Positions 43,043 through 63,885 of a stretch of DNA of 64,000 nucleotides are shown here, one piece after another. Location of the stretch: assembly GCA_001657325.1 (NCBI GenBank), contig LWRO01000019.1:62001-126000 (forward strand). The letters run 5' to 3'. This stretch comes from Geitlerinema sp. BBD 1991-9. Its GTDB lineage: Bacteria > Cyanobacteriota > Cyanobacteriia > Cyanobacteriales > Geitlerinemataceae. Numbering within the stretch: the first letter of the stretch is position 1; each line of letters opens with the position of its first letter. The position numbers and the translations under genes are program-made. The notes under the pieces are model-generated. The model searched no databases. It was not told where the DNA came from and saw only the letters and a list, made by a program, of their open reading frames with translations.

Positions 43043-43822
43043 ATGACACTCCCTTTACTTAGTTATCCGACTTCAAGTCAAAACCAGCGTGTCGCTGGCT
43101 ACGAAGTACCAGGGGACGAACAGCCACGAGTTTACTCAACTGACAACATCCCCACCGGGGGTGAGATGGACGAGTTAATTCGCGCCGCTTATCGCCAGGT
43201 TTTTCACGAACAGCAGATTCTGCAGTGCAACCGTCAGATCGATCTAGAGTCGCAGTTGCGGAACGGCCAAATTTCTGTGCGGGAATTTATTCGAGGTCTT
43301 GCAACCTCTGAAGTATTCCGCTCGCGCAGCTACGAGCCGAGCAATAACTATCGATTCGCGCAAATGTGCGTTCAACGCTTGCTCGGACGGGAAGTTTATA
43401 ACGAGCGAGAAAAGTTCGCCTGGTCGATCGTCCTAGCCACCAAAGGACTTCAAGGATTTATCGACGCACTCGTCAATAGCGAAGAATATCTGAGCCAGTT
43501 TGGTGACGATACGGTTCCCTACCAACGACGACGCATCATCCCACAGCGCAGTCTCGGCGATTTGCCCTTCGAGCGAATGCCCCGTTATGGCGCTGACCAC
43601 CGCGCAACGCTAGAGTCCTTGGGTTACTTCGCTCACGAGGCGAAGGATTACCCCTGGTCCAAACGTTCGTATCAATGTCCGCCACCTCGGTGGGCGTGGC
43701 AGAAACAACCGACCCCAGCGAACCTTCGCATTTGGACAACTCTGGTCAACGTGGGAGGGATACTCTTAGCCATCGGGACGCTGGCTATCGCCCTGTCTGC
43801 TTGGGGAATTATCGATTTGTAA
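43043..43822 (+). CDS. cpcL: Phycobilisome rod linker CpcL (membrane-anchored CpcG2 type)
   Basis: 259 residues. Residues 10-190 are a PBS-linker domain (LIRAAYRQVFHEQQILQCNRQ, VREFIRGLATSEVFRSRSYE, RFAQMCVQRLLGREVYNEREK). The last 30 residues contain a hydrophobic helix, IWTTLVNVGGILLAIGTLAIAL, absent from CpcG rod-core linkers. That is the defining feature of CpcL, which builds phycocyanin rods without an allophycocyanin core and ties them to the thylakoid membrane next to photosystem I. It is about 540 bp upstream of cpcB, probably with a separate transcript. Confidence 0.92.
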   Translation: MTLPLLSYPTSSQNQRVAGYEVPGDEQPRVYSTDNIPTGGEMDELIRAAYRQVFHEQQILQCNRQIDLESQLRNGQISVREFIRGLATSEVFRSRSYEPSNNYRFAQMCVQRLLGREVYNEREKFAWSIVLATKGLQGFIDALVNSEEYLSQFGDDTVPYQRRRIIPQRSLGDLPFERMPRYGADHRATLESLGYFAHEAKDYPWSKRSYQCPPPRWAWQKQPTPANLRIWTTLVNVGGILLAIGTLAIALSAWGIIDL

Positions 43823-47214: not shown

Positions 47215-47952
47215 ATGACTCTCTATCAGCCATTTTGGGATTACGCGCAAACTTGCTTAGAAGAGCGCTTAGATTTACAACCTTATCCAATTCCTGAAGG
47301 ATTTGAATATAAAGAAAGTATAGTTGGAAGAGGCAAAAGACAAGAATCTGTCATCACGGAAAGTCATGCTTTTCAGTCCTTAAAACTGAGACAGATTCGT
47401 GCAGCTCACGTTCGAGGTGGGAATTCCCTACAAGTTTTGAACTTTGTCATCTTCCCCCAATTAAATTACGATTTGCCGTTTTTTGGGGGAGATTTAGTGA
47501 CCTTACCCGGCGGACATCTCATTGCGATCGATATGCAGCCGCTCTTTCACGATGATGCTTACCGTGCAAAGTACACAGAACCGCTTTTGCCGATGTTTGA
47601 AAAACACCAACAACACCTTCCCTGGGGAGGTGATTTTCCCGAGGAAGCCAAGCCCTTCTTTTCTCCAATTTTCCTGTGGACGCGCCCCCAAGAAACGGAA
47701 GTAGTGGAAACGCGAGTTTTTGAGGCATTTAAAGACTATCTCAACGCCTATCTAGATTTCGTCGAAAAAGCTCAACCCGTCTCAGACGAACAGCAGCTTA
47801 AAGCCATACAAGAGGCTCAGTTACGCTATGTGGACTATCGTGCCGAAAAAGATCCGGCTCGGGGGATGTTTTCACGCTTGTACGGAGCAGAATGGACGGA
47901 GGAGTACATTCACGGATTTCTTTTCGACTTAGAGCGTAAATTAGTGGCTTAG
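47215..47952 (+). CDS. pebB: Phycoerythrobilin:ferredoxin oxidoreductase PebB
   Basis: 245 residues of the ferredoxin-dependent bilin reductase family. [65 protein letters not shown] (in parts) are PebB-like. The Asp in IDMQPLF is the conserved catalytic one. PebB reduces 15,16-dihydrobiliverdin to phycoerythrobilin. The PebA gene lies 12 kb away on the other strand, though pebA and pebB are usually adjacent. Confidence 0.92.
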
Positions 47953-48201: not shown

Positions 48202-48774
48202 ATGACCACACATCTAAGCGAACGGGCCAAACAACTGATCCCCAAAGCAAAAATTTTCAATTTCGATTCTTGGGAGTCCCGCTACCCCGAAAGTTCGATC
48301 GAACGGGGCAGAATTGCCGATGCTGAGGGACGTTATCTCAACGACAAAGATCTCGTAGCGCTCGGCGAAACGGGAGGCGATCCACAATCTCTTGAAACCG
48401 TTCGTTTTCTGCGGGATAATGCGACAGAAATCGTTGCTGAAGCACGTGGGAAGGTTCTCGACGAATTCCCCGGCATTAGCGAAGCGGGAGGGGATCTCTA
48501 TCCCACTGAACGCGCCGAAGCCTGTTGGCGGGATTTCTGGCATTTCCTGCGCTCCATTACCTACGGGATTGCAGGCAGTACGGTCAACTATACCAATGCC
48601 GATGGATTAGAAAACATGAATTTGCTCTATCGGGAGTTGAAAGTTCCCCTTCCCGCGATGGTGTGTGGGCTGGAAGCTTTGAAAGCTTCGAGTTTGAAGC
48701 GCATGGTCGATCGATCGGAAACGCTGGCTCCTTATTTCGATTGGCTTGTCGAACAGTTGCGTCAGTTTAAGTGA
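48202..48774 (+). CDS. Divergent phycobiliprotein-like protein with an N-terminal extension
   Basis: 190 residues. Residues 65-190 match the globin-like phycobiliprotein fold. RAEACWRDFWHFLRSITYG (about residues 104-122) aligns with [19 protein letters not shown] of CpcB, so Cys108 sits at the bilin-binding beta-82 position. The first 60 residues have no counterpart in rod subunits, except for ADAEGRYL near 40, which resembles ADARGEYL at the CpcB start. Similar genes are annotated phycobilisome protein in other phycoerythrin clusters, without a known role. It could be a minor bilin subunit, a lyase-linked carrier or a regulator. It stands between pebB and the linker operon. Confidence 0.8.
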   Translation: MTTHLSERAKQLIPKAKIFNFDSWESRYPESSIERGRIADAEGRYLNDKDLVALGETGGDPQSLETVRFLRDNATEIVAEARGKVLDEFPGISEAGGDLYPTERAEACWRDFWHFLRSITYGIAGSTVNYTNADGLENMNLLYRELKVPLPAMVCGLEALKASSLKRMVDRSETLAPYFDWLVEQLRQFK

Positions 48775-49365
48775 TGCAGTGAAGTGCGGCGTCCTATCTA
48801 CACTTGATGAAAGATAAGTTATATAGGGTAAACGCATCGAACTTTCCTTGACCCAAAGGCTTGCGCTTTTCGCGACTCTCTTAGTAAAGTGGTTGCAAAA
48901 AAAGGAATCCAGATTTCGATCCGTTTACCCTGGCGCTTGCTCTCGAGAGCAATGGTCACTTCAACGCTTCTGATACGAATCGAGGTCGAAATTTCAGGGA
49001 GTCAGCAACGGCTGTAGCTTGATGAGGGCGAACGGTGTCGAGGTAACAATCTGTTTACAGGATGTCGAAGAAAGTTTACATTTTGTTAAAACCAGAAGCC
49101 CCCTAAACATTATATAAATATACCTAGCTGAAAATACTGTCCTTTCAACCTATGAGGCGATCTCGGTCTCCGGCTGAATGAAGCGACAGGAGATCGAGAA
49201 TTCAGTCAACTTCTTGAGAGTTTTGCGTTTCCAGTTTTTGGCTCAGACGCTCTCTCGAACCGGTCGAACGCAAAGTTCTATTAAAAAACTAAGAACCCAA
49301 AGCGTTCGAGCTTACGGAGTTTTTTTGAAAAACACGGAAATTTCTTTACTCAAGGAGATTTGTTA
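48775..49365 (+). promoter_or_regulatory. cpeC upstream region
   Basis: A 591-bp gap with the promoter of the linker operon. The AT-rich TATATAAATATACC near 49114-49127 is a possible -10 area. GGAG at about 49354 is the ribosome site for the cpeC ATG. No gene was recognised; a 62-codon frame at 49178 ends just before cpeC and does not look conserved. Confidence 0.45.
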
Positions 49366-50241
49366 ATGGTTTTTGGACCTGCTTCCCGACTCGGGGTTAG
49401 CTTGTTTGAAGAGACCGAACCCATGGAACTGACCCCAGGACGTTCGGAAGAAGAGGTAGAAAGCATCATCCGTGCCGTTTACCGCCAAGTTTTGGGTAAC
49501 GCCTACGTCATGGAAAGCGAGCGTGCCTCGATCCCCGAATCCCAATTCAAACGGGGAGAGTTGAGCGTTCGCGAGTTTGTGCGAGCGGTTGCTAAATCAT
49601 CAGTTTACTCTTCTCGCTTCTTCGAGACTTGTCCGCGCTACCGCTTTATCGAGCTGAACTTCAAACACCTGTTGGGACGCACCCCTGACGGTTTGGAAGA
49701 AATGCGGGCGCACAGCACCATCCTCGATACTCAAGGCTTCGAGGCAGAGATAGACGCTTACCTCGACAGCGACGAGTATCAAGATGCCTACGGGGAAAAT
49801 ATCGTCCCCTACTATCGCGGTTACAAAACGCAGCCCGGTCGCAACATGGTTGGGTTTACCCATATGTTTGCCATGCTGCGGGGCGCGAGCAGCAGCGACT
49901 TCAAAGGCAGTGTTTCTGGCAAGGAACCCATCCTGAACAAACACGTGATTCAGGAAACACCACTGCCCGTCATTCCGCCTTCGGGTGGAAGTGCGGGGAA
50001 CAGCTGGTCTTTCCAAGAACCGGCTCTGGGCGCTCGGTCTCGCCAGGGCGCTGGTGCCACCAGCGAAGGCAAGGTCTTCCGCATTGAAGTTACGGGCTAC
50101 CGCTCGCCGAGCAAAGTCAACCGTGTCTCCAAGTTCCGCCGTAGCAACCAAGTCTACCTCGTTCCCTTTAACAAGCTGTCCCAAGAATACCAGCGCATTC
50201 ATGCCTCGGGTGGCGTAATTTCCAGCATTACACCTGTTTAA
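49366..50241 (+). CDS. cpeC: Phycoerythrin-associated rod linker CpeC
   Basis: 291 residues from the ATG at 49366. The start VFGPASRLGVSLFEETEPMEL is close to Fremyella CpeC as I recall it. A PBS-linker domain (about residues 20-155; SIIRAVYRQVLGNAYVMESE, VREFVRAVAKSSVYSS, FIELNFKHLLGRTP) is followed by a variable hinge (about 190-230) and a C-terminal CpcD-type domain (FRIEVTGYRSPSKVN to IHASGGVISSITPV). It joins phycoerythrin hexamers in the rod. Confidence 0.93.
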   Translation: MVFGPASRLGVSLFEETEPMELTPGRSEEEVESIIRAVYRQVLGNAYVMESERASIPESQFKRGELSVREFVRAVAKSSVYSSRFFETCPRYRFIELNFKHLLGRTPDGLEEMRAHSTILDTQGFEAEIDAYLDSDEYQDAYGENIVPYYRGYKTQPGRNMVGFTHMFAMLRGASSSDFKGSVSGKEPILNKHVIQETPLPVIPPSGGSAGNSWSFQEPALGARSRQGAGATSEGKVFRIEVTGYRSPSKVNRVSKFRRSNQVYLVPFNKLSQEYQRIHASGGVISSITPV

Positions 50242-50263: not shown

Positions 50264-50293
50264 GCGCAAGATTAAGCCAGCCTTATCTTTGCG
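50264..50293 (+). other. Imperfect stem-loop between cpeC and cpeD
   Basis: CGCAAGATTAAG pairs, with a shift, with CTTATCTTTGCG across a 4-nt loop. No T run. It lies 20 bp after the cpeC stop and may slow transcription or protect the 3' end of cpeC mRNA. Confidence 0.45.
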
Positions 50294-50354
50294 TGATACT
50301 CGATCCCTTTTTAGCGTGAAGATTTGTACCCAATTTATCAAAGGAGCCATATAT

Positions 50355-51122
50355 ATGAGCGTCGTGTTAGATGCCTCTATTGAGCTACAAGCAACGAGCA
50401 GCCCTGATGAAGTGGCTGCCGTTATCGGGGCAGTTTACAAGCAAGTGTTGGGCAATCCCCACGTGATGGAAAGCGAACGGCTTGTGACAGCAGAATCTCA
50501 GCTAGCTGACGGTACGCTCACGGTTCGCGAGTTCGTGCGCGCTGTAGCCCAATCCGCATTCTACCGCCGCCGCTACTTCGAGACTTGTGCGCCCTATCGC
50601 TTTGTCGAACTCAATTTCAAACACCTGTTAGGACGCGCCCCCCAAAGCCAAGCAGAACTGTCTCAACACATTTGCCTCTGTGTCGAGCAAGGCTACGATG
50701 CAGAAATCGATTCCTATATCGATAGCGACGAGTATCAAGAGAAGTTCGGCGAAAACATCGTGCCTTACTACCAAGGTGCGAAAACTCGCCTCGGACAATC
50801 GCAACTCGGGTACAACCGCACCCTGTCTCTGTATCAGGGTTATGCCGGTGTAGACAGCGCGTTCAAAGCATCTCGTTTAGTCGAGGCAATCGCGACGAAC
50901 AGCAGCAGCAAAGCCGCTGTGCCCGGCACGGGCGGCCGCGTGGCAGGATACAAAGATGCCACCGAAAAAACCTTCAAGATTCTGGTGAAAGGGTCTAAAT
51001 TCGACAGCCCTCGTCGTATCAGCACGACGGAGTACATCGTTCCCGGTAACCGGATGACCCCGCAAATCCAGCGGATTCACCGTGCGGGGGGTTCGATCGT
51101 CAGTATCACCGAAGTCGCCTAG
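50355..51122 (+). CDS. cpeD: Phycoerythrin-associated rod linker (CpeD type)
   Basis: 255 residues from the ATG at 50355, with AAGGAG 9 bp upstream. It starts MSVVLDASIELQATSSPDEV, then the PBS-linker domain ([55 protein letters not shown]) and a C-terminal CpcD domain (FKILVKGSKFDSPRRI to RAGGSIVSITEVA). The second linker of the series. Whether it equals CpeD or CpeE of Fremyella is a judgement from order and N-terminal resemblance. Confidence 0.88.
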   Translation: MSVVLDASIELQATSSPDEVAAVIGAVYKQVLGNPHVMESERLVTAESQLADGTLTVREFVRAVAQSAFYRRRYFETCAPYRFVELNFKHLLGRAPQSQAELSQHICLCVEQGYDAEIDSYIDSDEYQEKFGENIVPYYQGAKTRLGQSQLGYNRTLSLYQGYAGVDSAFKASRLVEAIATNSSSKAAVPGTGGRVAGYKDATEKTFKILVKGSKFDSPRRISTTEYIVPGNRMTPQIQRIHRAGGSIVSITEVA

Positions 51123-51142
51123 ATTTCGGCGTTGAATGATGG

Positions 51143-51175
51143 GAATAGAGACGAGATCGATTCACGTCTCTATTC
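51143..51175 (+). terminator. Perfect hairpin between the second and third rod-linker genes
   Basis: Arms GAATAGAGACG and CGTCTCTATTC are exact complements with an 11-nt loop. It is 21 bp after the stop of the upstream gene, followed by TGCTATTTCTCGATTTTT. It looks like an attenuator or partial terminator inside the operon. Confidence 0.7.
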
Positions 51176-51236
51176 TGCTATTTCTCGATTTTTGGAAAAA
51201 ACCGTTTGTATTCACATTCAAATTGAGGAAAACAGC

Positions 51237-52001
51237 ATGAGTGGATTAACTGAAACCTTGGTCAACGATCCGGTAGAACTGCGCCCCAACGCACTGGAAG
51301 ACGAGTTTGAAATGGTGATTCGTGCCGCGTACAAACAGGTACTCGGTAACGCTCACGTTTTAGATGCTGAGCGTCTCGTCAGTGCAGAGTCCATGCTCCG
51401 GAACGGCGACTTAACTGTTCGCGGTTTCGTGCGGGCGATCGCTCGTTCCGAGCTGTACAAATCTCTCTTTTTCAACGGGAATCCTCCCTATCGTTTCATC
51501 GAACTCAACTGCAAGCATTTACTCGGCCGCGCACCGTTCGACCAAGCTGAAATTTCGAGCCACGTTCAACTGTGGGGCGAACAAGGCTATGAGGCTGAAA
51601 TCGATTCCTATCTCGACAGCGACGAGTATCTCTCGAACTTTGGAGAAAACATCGTCCCCTACCCCCGTTGCATTCGCACTCAAACTGGGGTTAAAAACAA
51701 CGTCTTCAATCAAACAGTTTCGTTAGTCGGTGGTTTTGCCACCAGTGATAGCAGCAATCGGGCGCAGCTCGTTTCGAGCTTGGCTGCCAACCTGCCTCAG
51801 AAGATTAAAGTCTCAGCTGGAACGGCCGGTGCTGCAAGCACAACGGAAAAACGTTTCCGGATTGCAGTGGCTAAAGGCGGCGTGACCCCTGTTGCCAAAC
51901 AGAGCAATACGACCTACGAGGTGAGCTACACTCAGCTCTCTCAGCGCATTCAGACGATCCATCGCAGCGGTGGCTCGATTCTGAGTATTACGGAAGTGTA
52001 A
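51237..52001 (+). CDS. cpeE: Phycoerythrin-associated rod linker (CpeE type)
   Basis: 254 residues from the ATG at 51237; the frame opens at 51132, but the extra part crosses the hairpin and is not linker-like. PBS-linker domain ([55 protein letters not shown]) and C-terminal CpcD domain ([16 protein letters not shown] to [13 protein letters not shown]). Third linker in order; the D/E naming is not certain. Confidence 0.87.
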
Positions 52002-52433: not shown

Positions 52434-52991
52434 ATGGATATTACTAAATTCGTCGAACTCTCTTTAGGCTGCTGGCGATCTCAGCGCAGTGTTCACCATT
52501 TAGCTTTCGGACATTTTGAGGAAGTCACTTCAACAATTAAGATCGAACCTTTAACAGCTGACGACTCAGCAGCGATCGAGGTTTGTAAGTTACATCAGAT
52601 CGATCCCGATCGAGTCGTTTGTCCGTTTCGCATGAGTTGGGAAGGAACATCCGACTGGGATGAGGAAGAGGACGTTCGAGGAACGACAGTTTTAGTTCCC
52701 ATTCCCAATCCAGACAACCCAAAAGTCGGACAACTGCTGAGAGATCGAGGGTATGCAGAAACAATCCCCTCGATCGGCGAATATCGAATTACTGAAGAGG
52801 GAACTTTCATTCTCGTTACACCCTACGATCGAGCAATGGCTGAAGAAAAAATTTGGTTTGTCAATCCGAATTTTAGACTTCGCACTTCACTCATTAAAAC
52901 TAATCAAGGCTCGGGTGTGGTCACCGCTTCGTTTTCATCCGAAATCCGTACTTTGTCTTCTTCTACTGACGACTCGACAGCGTCTGAATAA
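52434..52991 (+). CDS. cpeS: Phycoerythrobilin lyase CpeS
   Basis: 185 residues. The N-terminus FVELSLGCWRSQRSVHHLAF carries the CpeS/CpcS-family signature WRSQRS.HHL. A beta-barrel (lipocalin-like) pattern follows, with RTSLIKTNQG near the end. CpeS attaches phycoerythrobilin at Cys82 of phycobiliproteins. cpeT starts 31 bp later and cpeR follows, the Fremyella cpeSTR order. Confidence 0.93.
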   Translation: MDITKFVELSLGCWRSQRSVHHLAFGHFEEVTSTIKIEPLTADDSAAIEVCKLHQIDPDRVVCPFRMSWEGTSDWDEEEDVRGTTVLVPIPNPDNPKVGQLLRDRGYAETIPSIGEYRITEEGTFILVTPYDRAMAEEKIWFVNPNFRLRTSLIKTNQGSGVVTASFSSEIRTLSSSTDDSTASE

Positions 52992-53022
52992 AAAAACATC
53001 CGTTAATTTCTTGCAATCGATA

Positions 53023-53631
53023 ATGTCTGCCATTGATAACCATTCCATGTTGACTCTAGCCCGCTGGATGGCCGGTGAGTTTAGCAATCAAAAGCAAGCC
53101 TCTAAAGAACCTGCTAATTACGCCCATATTCGAGTCTTTTTTCGCCCGTTACCGTTTGACTTTTTTTCAGGGCTTGGATTTTATTCCGAGCAAGTTTACG
53201 ATTACGATCTTTGGTCGCCTTACCGCCAAGCCGTTCATCGAGTTGTCAACCGAGGAGAAGATATTTACATTGAAAACTATGGCTTAAAAGATCCGTTGCT
53301 TTATGCCGGATCGGGCCGGAGTTTAGAGATTCTCCACACGATTCAACCTGCATCGATCGAACGTCGATATAACTGCTCGATGATTTTTCGACGAGATGGA
53401 GATAAATTCATCGGTCGAGTAGAAGGAAAACAATGTTTCCTCGAACGCAAAGGCCGTCAAACTTATTTGATCAGCGAAGTTGAAATCACCGATCGAACCT
53501 TTGTGAGTTTAGATCGAGGGATGGATATCAACACGGACGAACAAGTCTGGGGTTCGGCGGTCGGCCCGTTGAGATTTGAAAAACAAACGAGCTATGCCGA
53601 TGAAATTTCATTCGATCGACTGTCACAATAA
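53023..53631 (+). CDS. cpeT: Chromophore lyase CpeT
   Basis: 202 residues from the ATG at 53023, where the family-like LTLARWMAGEFSNQKQAS begins. The blocks RVFFRPLPFDFF, FYSEQVYDYDLWSPYRQAVHRV (in parts), CSMIFRRDGDKFIG and DRGMDINTDEQVWGS are CpeT/CpcT-type. These lyases serve the beta-subunit Cys near 153/165. The longer upstream frame overlapping cpeS is not used. Confidence 0.93.
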   Translation: MSAIDNHSMLTLARWMAGEFSNQKQASKEPANYAHIRVFFRPLPFDFFSGLGFYSEQVYDYDLWSPYRQAVHRVVNRGEDIYIENYGLKDPLLYAGSGRSLEILHTIQPASIERRYNCSMIFRRDGDKFIGRVEGKQCFLERKGRQTYLISEVEITDRTFVSLDRGMDINTDEQVWGSAVGPLRFEKQTSYADEISFDRLSQ

Positions 53632-53692
53632 ATGAGAATGAATGCCATAGACAGCTTCACCAAGATTGAACTTAGATCGAGTTTTAGAAAGA

Positions 53693-53998
53693 ATGCTTCC
53701 ACCCGTTGCCCAACAAAAAATGCAGGCTTGGATTCGGAGAAGACAGCTCATCTGCTCGGGAAACTTCTTTGTCTTTGAAACTTTAGATTATTCTGCTATC
53801 GAGAGGTTTGAAGAATGTGTCAAAGCCCTGGGAGGAACGCTCATTTGTGTCGATCCTAAAAAACGAATTTGGATGGGCAACCACCGGCAAGTTCTTCTAT
53901 ACCAAGCCAAAGCAAGTTTACATACGCCCAAGCACGATCTCAAACAATATTGGTTTAAATACGGAAGTCACTACACCCGTTTTGACGAGCGAGCTTGA
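53693..53998 (+). CDS. cpeR: Phycoerythrin operon activator CpeR
   Basis: 101 residues from the ATG at 53693 (a TTG at 53666 is open). MLPPVAQQKMQAWIRRR, CSGNFFVFETLDYSAIERFEECVKALGG (in parts) and HDLKQYWFKYGSHYTRFDERA are close to CpeR as I remember it. CpeR is needed for cpeBA expression in Fremyella. It is a small protein without a classical DNA-binding motif. cpeBA, its likely target, is 9 kb to the right. Confidence 0.9.
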   Translation: MLPPVAQQKMQAWIRRRQLICSGNFFVFETLDYSAIERFEECVKALGGTLICVDPKKRIWMGNHRQVLLYQAKASLHTPKHDLKQYWFKYGSHYTRFDERA

Positions 53999-54096: not shown

Positions 54097-55890
54097 ATGA
54101 CAATTAATACGATGACTTCGACTCTGGGAAAAGCATCTCAGCTGGGGGTCGGTTTTTTTGAAGATACGTCACCCGTACAACTCCAGAATGGATCGTCAAT
54201 CGAGGAGATCGACGTTGCCATTCGTGCCGTTTACCGACAAGTTCTCGGCAACATCCATATTATGGAAAGCGAACGGCTTGTCGTGCCAGAATCACAACTG
54301 CAAGAGGGTGAAATTACGGTTCGGGACTTCGTTCGGCAAGTGGCTTGTTCTGAACTCTACCGCAGTCGTTTTTTCGAGGCATTGCCTCAACTTCGCTTCA
54401 TCGAACTCAATTTCAAGCATTTCCTCGGACGCGCACCGGAAAGCTCCGAGGAACTCAGCTTTCACGTTGAAATTCTCGATCGAGAAGGTTATGAAGCAGA
54501 AATTGATTCTTACGTATTGAGTGACGAATACTTAACGGCATTTGGCGAAAATACGGTTCCCTACTACCGAGGCTATAAAACTCAGACGGGTCGGAGTGTT
54601 GTCGGCTTTACTCATCTATTTCAGCTCTTGCGGGGATCTTGCAGCAGTGATTTTTCGAGCGTTCAAGGCGCTCAAGCTCGCTTGCAACAATCTCTTTTCA
54701 CGAGCCAGCCCAGCACAGTCACTTCTTTTCCATCCTCTTATTCATCGCTTCGAGCAGGATGGTATCGTCCTCCAACTGATGCCAACCGTCTCATCGCACA
54801 GGCTTTAGGGCTATCGAGCTACGCGTCGAGGGTTTCTCGGAAACAGGCTCCTGTACCTTACCAGGAAGCTTTGCAGCGTCAGTATCAGGCCTTTCAAGAT
54901 GTCCCCGTTGTCGAGTTGTTACCCGGTCGTTCGGAAGCAGATGCGGAAACGGTCATTCGTGCGGTTTACCGCCAAGTCTTTGGGAACGCTCACGTGATGG
55001 AAAGCGAACGCCTCACCGTGGCGGAATCTCAGTTGAAACGTGGAGAACTCAGCGTCCGCGAATTCGTCCGTCTCGCGGCGAAATCTGAATTATATCGATC
55101 TCGTTTCTTCGATAACTGTCCCCGTTACCGCGCGATCGAGTTGAATTTCAAACACCTTCTCGGCCGTGCGCCGGCTGACTACTCAGAAACCTTCGTTCAC
55201 AGCCAAATCCTCGATCGAGGCGGTTTTGAGGCAGAAATCGACTCCTATCTCGACAGCGACGAGTACCAAGATGCATTTGGGGAAAACATCGTTCCCGACT
55301 ATCGCGGATACCAAACCCAAACGGGTCAAAAGCTCCTTCAGTTCGCGAATTCGTTCAAACTGTACACGAGTTACTCAACTAGCGATAAAGCTGGAGAGGA
55401 CGGACTTCAACCTCGCTTGGCGAAGGGGTTAATCTACAACAATCCAACGGGCAGCACTCCCGTTACCGATGTCAACAAATTGTTGTCCGATCTCTTTAAT
55501 CTGGGAACCAAACCCAAACCTCAGCCCATCGAACCCGCTATCCTCAGCTCCGATTTGGCCTTGCAACGTCAGTATCGGGAACAAGCCGATCGCATTGAGG
55601 TGTTGCAAAAGCAACTCGCCGACTTGCAGCCTCTGGCCGCGATCGGACAAAGCACGTTGAACAAATGGAATGTTTCCGGTTCCGCATCTCAACCAACTGA
55701 GGGGACGATACCCTCCAATCGCTTCTCAACCGAAGCGCCCCAAGTGTCCTCACAATCCTTGTCTCAACGTCTCCAAGAACAAAGCGAGACCCTCACTCGT
55801 TTACAAGCTAAAATTGACGACGCACGGCGCTTTTCAGCTATAGGAGAAGCGCGTTTGAACAAGTGGCGGAAGCGGTCGTTTTCTCGCTAA
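54097..55890 (+). CDS. Tandem rod linker with two PBS-linker domains and coiled-coil tail repeats
   Basis: 597 residues. Linker domain 1 (about 35-165: AIRAVYRQVLGNIHIMESER, FIELNFKHFLGRAP) starts with a CpeC-like KASQLGVGFFEDTSP. After a Ser/Pro-rich hinge (185-270) comes domain 2 (about 280-410: [33 protein letters not shown]). There is no CpcD domain. Instead the last 115 residues hold two copies of a predicted coiled coil plus AIGxxxLNKW (about 485-524 and 552-590). Double-linker proteins are known, for example in marine Synechococcus and Gloeobacter, but I do not recall this tail. It may couple two rods or a rod to something else. Confidence 0.85.
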   Translation: MTINTMTSTLGKASQLGVGFFEDTSPVQLQNGSSIEEIDVAIRAVYRQVLGNIHIMESERLVVPESQLQEGEITVRDFVRQVACSELYRSRFFEALPQLRFIELNFKHFLGRAPESSEELSFHVEILDREGYEAEIDSYVLSDEYLTAFGENTVPYYRGYKTQTGRSVVGFTHLFQLLRGSCSSDFSSVQGAQARLQQSLFTSQPSTVTSFPSSYSSLRAGWYRPPTDANRLIAQALGLSSYASRVSRKQAPVPYQEALQRQYQAFQDVPVVELLPGRSEADAETVIRAVYRQVFGNAHVMESERLTVAESQLKRGELSVREFVRLAAKSELYRSRFFDNCPRYRAIELNFKHLLGRAPADYSETFVHSQILDRGGFEAEIDSYLDSDEYQDAFGENIVPDYRGYQTQTGQKLLQFANSFKLYTSYSTSDKAGEDGLQPRLAKGLIYNNPTGSTPVTDVNKLLSDLFNLGTKPKPQPIEPAILSSDLALQRQYREQADRIEVLQKQLADLQPLAAIGQSTLNKWNVSGSASQPTEGTIPSNRFSTEAPQVSSQSLSQRLQEQSETLTRLQAKIDDARRFSAIGEARLNKWRKRSFSR

Positions 55891-62582: not shown

Positions 62583-63101
<519 letters not shown>

Positions 63102-63173: not shown

Positions 63174-63885
<712 letters not shown>

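Follow-up and report, generated by a model that had tools for sequence, protein, structure and literature searches.

The window analysed here, a stretch of 64,000 nucleotides from contig LWRO01000019.1 of the cyanobacterium Geitlerinema sp. BBD 1991-9, holds a phycoerythrin (PE) gene island (Table 1), in which a phycobilisome (PBS) linker gene comes right after a run of genes resembling cpeCDESTR. All three adjacent PE linkers contain PF01383 (E 3e-20, 1e-10 and 2e-12). Because PF06206 begins at residue 101 of the ORF containing CpeT, the true start of CpeT is probably downstream of the start of this frame. The 110-aa ORF, which has no Pfam or NCBIfam match, is presumably cpeR, given its place in the cpeCDESTR gene order. 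The 190-residue phycobiliprotein-like protein scores far under every NCBIfam subunit cut-off that it matched, and its relatives precede cpe linkers in many Nostoc loci. Terminator-like sites round the linker gene are not in excess (3 against a shuffle mean of 3.1), and a plasmid search gave no match to a near-identical copy of the operon.

Table 1. Features of the phycoerythrin island, in window coordinates.
Feature	Position	Strand	Remarks
CpcL-type linker	43043-43822	+	same island
cpcB, cpcA	after CpcL-type linker	+	
CpcE/CpcF-like genes	between cpcB/cpcA and 47215	+	provisional labels
PebB-type bilin reductase	47215-47952	+	
Phycobiliprotein-like protein	48202-48774	+	190 residues; PF00502
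CpeC-type rod linker	49360-50241	+	PF00427 + PF01383
CpeD-like rod linker	50289-51122	+	PF00427 + PF01383
CpeE-like rod linker	51132-52001	+	PF00427 + PF01383
CpeS-type lyase	52434-52991	+	PF09367
ORF containing CpeT	52753-53631	+	PF06206 from residue 101
110-aa ORF, putative cpeR	53666-53998	+	named by position; stops 98 nt upstream of linker
Tailed double PBS linker	54097-55890	+	597-aa ORF, ATG start
First PF00427 (REP) domain	54187-54582	+	about residues 31-162; Pfam and PDB match
Second PF00427 (REP) domain	54931-55305	+	residues 279-403; Pfam
Tail repeat 1	55537-55668	+	predicted helix 481-524 ending AIGQSTLNKW (515-524)
Tail repeat 2	55750-55881	+	predicted helix 552-595 holding AIGEARLNKWRKRSF; AIGEARLNKW at 581-590
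CpeS-like gene, CpeY, more HEAT-repeat genes, second bilin reductase	downstream of tailed linker		
cpeA, phycoerythrin alpha	62583-63077	-	NF058506, 301 bits (cut-off 225)
cpeB, phycoerythrin beta	63174-63728	-	NF058508, 333 bits (cut-off 275)

The first-pass annotation had described this linker as two PBS-linker domains in one 597-residue protein with a C-terminus devoid of CpcD, and both points hold. PF00427 occurs twice (whole-protein E 6.4e-100; best stretch, residues 279-403), with 330 bits over the two stretches against a cut-off of 28.7, which places the protein among PBS linkers, and PF01383, the CpcD domain, was not found by Pfam at E<=1. With two PF00427 domains and PF01383 absent, the protein does not have the layout of CpeC/CpcC rod linkers, in which one PF00427 is followed by PF01383; it has that of the multi-domain CpcN, CpcJ and Glr linkers (at least two PF00427 domains, CpcD absent). 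Its best NCBIfam CpcG score, 198.6 bits, lies under the cut-off of 420 and does not place it in CpcG/CpcL, a cut-off under which the window's own CpcL likewise falls, at 241. Pfam detected no ribbon-helix-helix (RHH) family in it, so it is not an RHH-like protein of the kind discussed below. The best PDB match is CpcN, over residues 9-443 (E 3e-228).

The tail and its distribution

The two halves of the tail, which had been noted as coiled-coil copies ending in AIGQSTLNKW and AIGEARLNKW, align with a score of 78, against a best of 44 among 2000 plain shuffles and of 54 among 2000 shuffles that preserve the hydrophobic/polar pattern. Because both shuffle scores are lower than 78, the likeness exceeds coiled-coil composition, and the halves are a true internal repeat. 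The tail, unfamiliar to the first-pass annotation, is no known domain of Pfam, NCBIfam or the PDB: no Pfam or NCBIfam family matched it at cut-off (weak Pfam matches, KxDL at E 0.21 and WWC1 at E 0.6), and its PDB matches are weak (E 0.2-0.6) and limited to linker-proximal residues. No description of the tail or of a tailed double PE linker was found in the accessible parts of the open-access literature, including those of PMC12525769, PMC10696076, PMC9415938, PMC3877281, PMC4417701, PMC2246261 and PMC6416890.

The profile search of cyanobacteria that had been proposed at the outset matched many genomes. Among 386 genomes sampled over the phylum, 33 match the tail alone (E<=0.01), and of 388 from the order, 144 match the tail profile (E<=1e-6). 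Within the family to which the window belongs, the tail is present in 2 of 14 genomes, and no tail relative was found in viral contigs. The profile matches examined are of at least three kinds, namely PBS linkers, RHH-like coiled-coil proteins and an HMA_2-domain protein. When named genomes were scanned with the bait pattern IG[ED][AL][RK]LN[KR]W, 59 stretches yielded 53 confirmed loci, among them loci of Candidatus Paraprochloron terpiosi, Symploca, Hormoscilla, Mastigocoleus, Nostoc, Komarekiella, Calothrix and Pseudanabaena, and 50 of the 53 (all except L088, L092 and L097) encode a tailed linker, with two PF00427 domains in 13 cases and one in 37. The tail is thus not unique to the window, and the doubled PE linker belongs to a wider set of tailed linkers. 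A cpeR-like ORF lies directly upstream of the tailed linker in 38 of the 50 baited loci and does not in the other 12. In Pseudanabaena sp. PCC 7367 a single-domain tailed linker (WP_015146286.1), annotated as a rod-core linker, is located on plasmid pPSE7367.01, where cpe-type linkers, CpeS, CpeT and a cpeR-like gene precede it and a CpcL-type linker follows; this linker/lyase cluster (L126, 263106-284086) lies on a plasmid typed as conjugative, and the stretch analysed contains no PE subunit genes. Two further relatives are peculiar in themselves: one from the window's family (L004:802-2514 in genome G006) has two in-frame stops between its linker domains, and a contig whose title, Candidatus Gracilibacteria, is probably wrong (L053) encodes both a tailed linker and a cpeR-like gene.

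AlphaFold predicts the region past residue 403 of the whole linker (mean pLDDT 65, pTM 0.33) mostly with low confidence and then as two helices, whose blocks are of moderate confidence (pLDDT 64-85). Both motifs fall inside uninterrupted predicted helices, at the end of helix 1 and near the end of helix 2, and a tail-only model (50 rows) again gave two long helices (pTM 0.43). The single-chain models of the whole protein and of the tail contain no confident hairpin, packing or oligomer of these helices, and an intramolecular tail hairpin was dropped as a candidate because the tail-only prediction gave no confident model of it. Across 65 distinct tailed linkers, I, L, I, A, A, G, L, W and V recur at 3-4 spacing, and the 3.5-residue periodicity is above shuffles (P 0.006 and 0.021). 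In the same set, L, N, W, R and R of LNKWRxR are constant, a constancy partly made by the bait, since 52 of the 65 sequences contain the search pattern; the two Arg fall outside that pattern. The sequences compared were those matching a loose motif, which none of the distinct tailed linkers available for this comparison failed, and further relatives deviate at the motif (ANKWQRR, LNKWQRR, INKWRSK and LGKWRTK).

The C-terminal 18 residues of the 65 linkers are basic (mean charge +3.1), and RLNKWR..F resembles the membrane-targeting tail of FtsA. This basic, Trp-containing C-terminus might be an amphipathic membrane-targeting helix, in which case the protein would be a membrane-anchored rod linker working like CpcL. 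The rod-membrane linker CpcL likewise joins PF00427 to a docking C-terminus, and the next recognised gene is of the CpcL type in 8 of the 50 baited loci (at L066 another ORF perhaps intervenes), as it also is in Pseudanabaena sp. PCC 7367. However, neither in the 65 linkers nor in those other proteins with the motif that are long enough to score (18 of 29) is amphipathicity of the last 18 residues above shuffles, and since the hydrophobic moment does not surpass that of shuffles (a median fraction of 0.59 of which equal or exceed it) an amphipathic anchor has to be downgraded. Moreover, the hydrophobic residues hold coiled-coil spacing, repeat 1 is internal, and the same island already encodes a CpcL, the C-terminus of which is a hydrophobic helix whereas that of the tailed linker is a charged coil. 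A membrane anchor is accordingly quite unlikely in our judgement.

Domain number, descent and association with phycoerythrin

The number of PF00427 domains in front of the tail extends beyond two. The tailed linker of genome G525 has three, and two linkers of one genus have seven (L141:2505-8534 on the minus strand in G568, 2,009 residues; L142:2818-8841 on the minus strand in G428, 2,007 residues), which exceeds the five reported for CpcN. Genome G428 also holds a second candidate tailed linker. Because the tail is present with one, two, three or seven domains, it behaves as a module.

In two trees, the first domain of the window's linker (D1) clusters with the first domains of other tailed doubles (support 0.90 and 0.91), and the second (D2) shares a clade with the second domains of other doubles and with many tailed linkers that have a single domain (0.97 and 0.92). 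Both fall within a clade that includes 27 CpeC domains (0.82 and 0.70, with low support inside), and the two PF00427 domains of the window's linker therefore belong to the CpeC lineage in these trees, which did not include CpcC. CpeC-type PE rod linkers, which have the nearest PF00427 domains in the tree, differ in having one PF00427 plus CpcD and in lacking the coil tail. CpcL forms a separate clade (support 1.0). In the seven-domain linker, domain 7 groups with D2 and is 73% identical to D2 of the window, while domains 1-6 group with D1-type domains (0.96); all three domains of the G525 linker group with D2. Single-domain linkers group sometimes with D1, as L073 and L084 do next to the doubles L076 and L077, and often with D2, as L075 does next to L063, L067, L070 and L091. 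This mixed placement of singles and multi-domain forms suggests, in trees where several deep nodes are poorly supported (0.2-0.8), that a domain was lost more than once and that domains multiplied at least twice while the tail was kept; because the tail was used as bait, losses of the tail itself are invisible to the named scan.

Descent from the CpcN/Glr linkers, a possibility prompted by the best PDB match, is not supported by the domain trees, in which the nine gloeobacterial domains separate as a clade (0.94 and 0.92) that excludes the window's domains. According to the accessible text on CpcN of Anthocerotibacter panamensis, this linker has five PF00427 domains without CpcD and strings phycocyanin hexamers into a chain, no homologs of CpcN or ApcH above 50% identity were found outside Aurora or in crown cyanobacteria, and Aurora has multi-domain linkers of another kind (PMC10696076). 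CpcN and CpcJ share tandem PF00427 domains with the tailed linker but serve phycocyanin in a thylakoid-free lineage and belong to the gloeobacterial clade, in which the tail has no match. Glr1262 and Glr2806 of Gloeobacter violaceus, with three PF00427 domains each, are called unique to Gloeobacter in the excerpted source, which has Glr1262 bundling three rods (PMC12525769); as described there, they differ from the tailed linker in joining phycocyanin hexamers to the core, and they are of another clade and have no match to the tail. MpeD of marine Synechococcus, a PE linker for PEI and PEII that is a chimera of two linker domains (PMC2246261, in part), is like the tailed linker in having two linker domains for PE, a likeness by description alone; the part of that source consulted does not mention a coiled-coil tail.

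The association with PE extends to whole genomes. CpeB (E<=1e-68) is found in 54 of 62 tailed-linker genomes, compared with 110 of the other 326 in the sample (Fisher p 2e-15). The 62 were defined as tail-profile matches down to 63.8 bits; 43 of them are confirmed to have PF00427-type domains, and 19 are counted by their score and the length of the frame. A hand count by genus, which allows for relatedness only in part, gives 29 of 34 against 33 of 115 (p 4e-9). Left out of the 62 were G125 (L021), G258 (L017) and G377 (L019), with HMA_2-type proteins that have no linker domain, G559, assumed to be of this type from score and length, and G600, in which the linker domain is absent. CpeB is missing at this cut-off in eight tailed-linker genomes (G499, G018, G516, G547, G006, G549, G580 and G428). 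In G499 the tailed linker adjoins a divergent PE pair that exceeds the NCBIfam PE cut-offs. A second PC-like alpha/beta pair, under the C-phycocyanin cut-offs and accompanied by CpcE/CpcF-like genes, occurs in G018 and G516, as would be expected of phycoerythrocyanin. In G547 a CpcF-like gene and CpcL adjoin the tailed linker, G006 has cpe linkers, CpeS, CpeT and a cpeR-like gene, and in G549 a cpeR-like gene adjoins the linker; no context accounts for the missing CpeB in G580 (76% complete) and G428. At L137 and L138, tailed linkers adjoin a second PC-like alpha/beta pair and CpcE/CpcF-like genes, probably in phycoerythrocyanin operons.

Proteins sharing the tail motif and the proposed dock

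The C-terminal motif also ends 29 other proteins, including RHH-like coiled-coil proteins, the coils of which resemble the linker repeats. L047:8491-9396, L049:8723-11041 and others make up an RHH-like coiled-coil family, most members of which end in an IGExxLNKWR-like sequence. Proteins at L017, L019 and L021 have a twin coil and the tail motif at the C-terminus; HMA_2 is N-terminal in the first, and the other two look alike.

An RHH-like gene is the next recognised gene downstream of the linker in 7 of the 50 baited loci (L047, L048, L049, L051, L079, L072 and L094, the last two cut by contig ends, and that of L072 about 1 kb on), and one adjoins the linker in further genomes, e.g. G036, G380, G418, G437, G493, G496 and G505; such neighbours were seen in seven families (f5, f9, f14, f16, f19, f24 and f29). 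Symploca and Hormoscilla have both genes. The common motif and this adjacency raise the possibility that the tail pairs with an RHH-like coiled-coil protein, through which unassembled linker would signal the state of the antenna to a DNA-binding regulator, and one family member, from L026, does carry RHH_1 above the Pfam cut-off (24.8 against 20.5). Among four linker-neighbour proteins scanned, however, RHH_1 reached 17.9 and 13.5 bits in two, under the cut-off, and was not matched in the other two, so that their RHH label rests on likeness to the L026-type N-terminus. The neighbour is absent from most tailed-linker loci, and the motif of the Paraprochloron neighbour is without Trp. With short proteins counted, the RHH-like profile matches 120 of the 243 genomes searched in the order (E<=1e-8), so these proteins are not specific to tailed linkers, being common without them. 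In the window's genome no RHH-like coiled-coil protein was found (best E 0.22), and an obligatory partnership is rejected on that ground. Signalling by such a pair is unlikely.

It is established from known structures that PF00427 sits in the hexamer cavity, and from this we infer that each CpeC-type PF00427 domain of the tailed linker would occupy the cavity of a PE hexamer, which would give two hexamers per chain. Because CpcD is missing, the chain cannot pass to the next hexamer by the standard rod route. The two 44-residue helices with coiled-coil spacing at the chain end would instead form a dock, most likely pairing tailed linkers with each other or with a coiled-coil partner, and docking would hold hexamers or rods side by side or tie them to a scaffold. 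The first-pass annotation had suggested that the protein could bind two rods or dock rods to a non-standard partner; the doubled linker, its place among PE genes and the conserved tail standing where CpcD would be support this in part, and gene context offers one candidate partner, the RHH-like coiled-coil protein. The tail is kept while the domain number changes, which is why a docking role is suggested for it; doubling is not essential, because 37 of the 50 baited relatives hold one hexamer domain. Our main reading, to which we give a probability of roughly 55%, is that the protein is a distal-rod multi-hexamer PE linker in which the coiled-coil tail replaces CpcD as the dock.

An ordinary rod linker whose coiled coil caps the chain or serves as a spacer where CpcD would be, and which has no special partner, would also agree with CpeC-type domains within a PE operon and with models that show no docking with confidence. 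The conserved Asn, Arg and Arg, which are not core positions, and the occurrence of the motif in unrelated proteins instead suggest specific recognition, although this conservation is partly bait-biased, and the domain number varies with the tail kept; we therefore regard an ordinary linker as rather improbable.

Building on the dock reading, we tentatively propose, as something that may well prove wrong, an undescribed family of multivalent distal-rod linkers in cyanobacteria outside Gloeobacteria. Its members would combine a constant coiled-coil dock with between one and seven domains that bind hexamers, and would tether PE hexamers in chains or bundles that replace stacked rods or exist alongside them. 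The putative DNA-binding coiled-coil proteins that are encoded next door in several lineages would share this dock module.

Multi-domain hexamer linkers without CpcD have so far been described as gloeobacterial, at least in the accessible text of the two reports (PMC10696076; PMC12525769). If tailed linkers work similarly, assembly of the chain or bundle type would have arisen again, for phycoerythrin, in other lineages. The seven-domain relatives and Pseudanabaena sp. PCC 7367 make this idea testable, and tailed linkers suggest that a way of tethering red antenna pigments has been overlooked.
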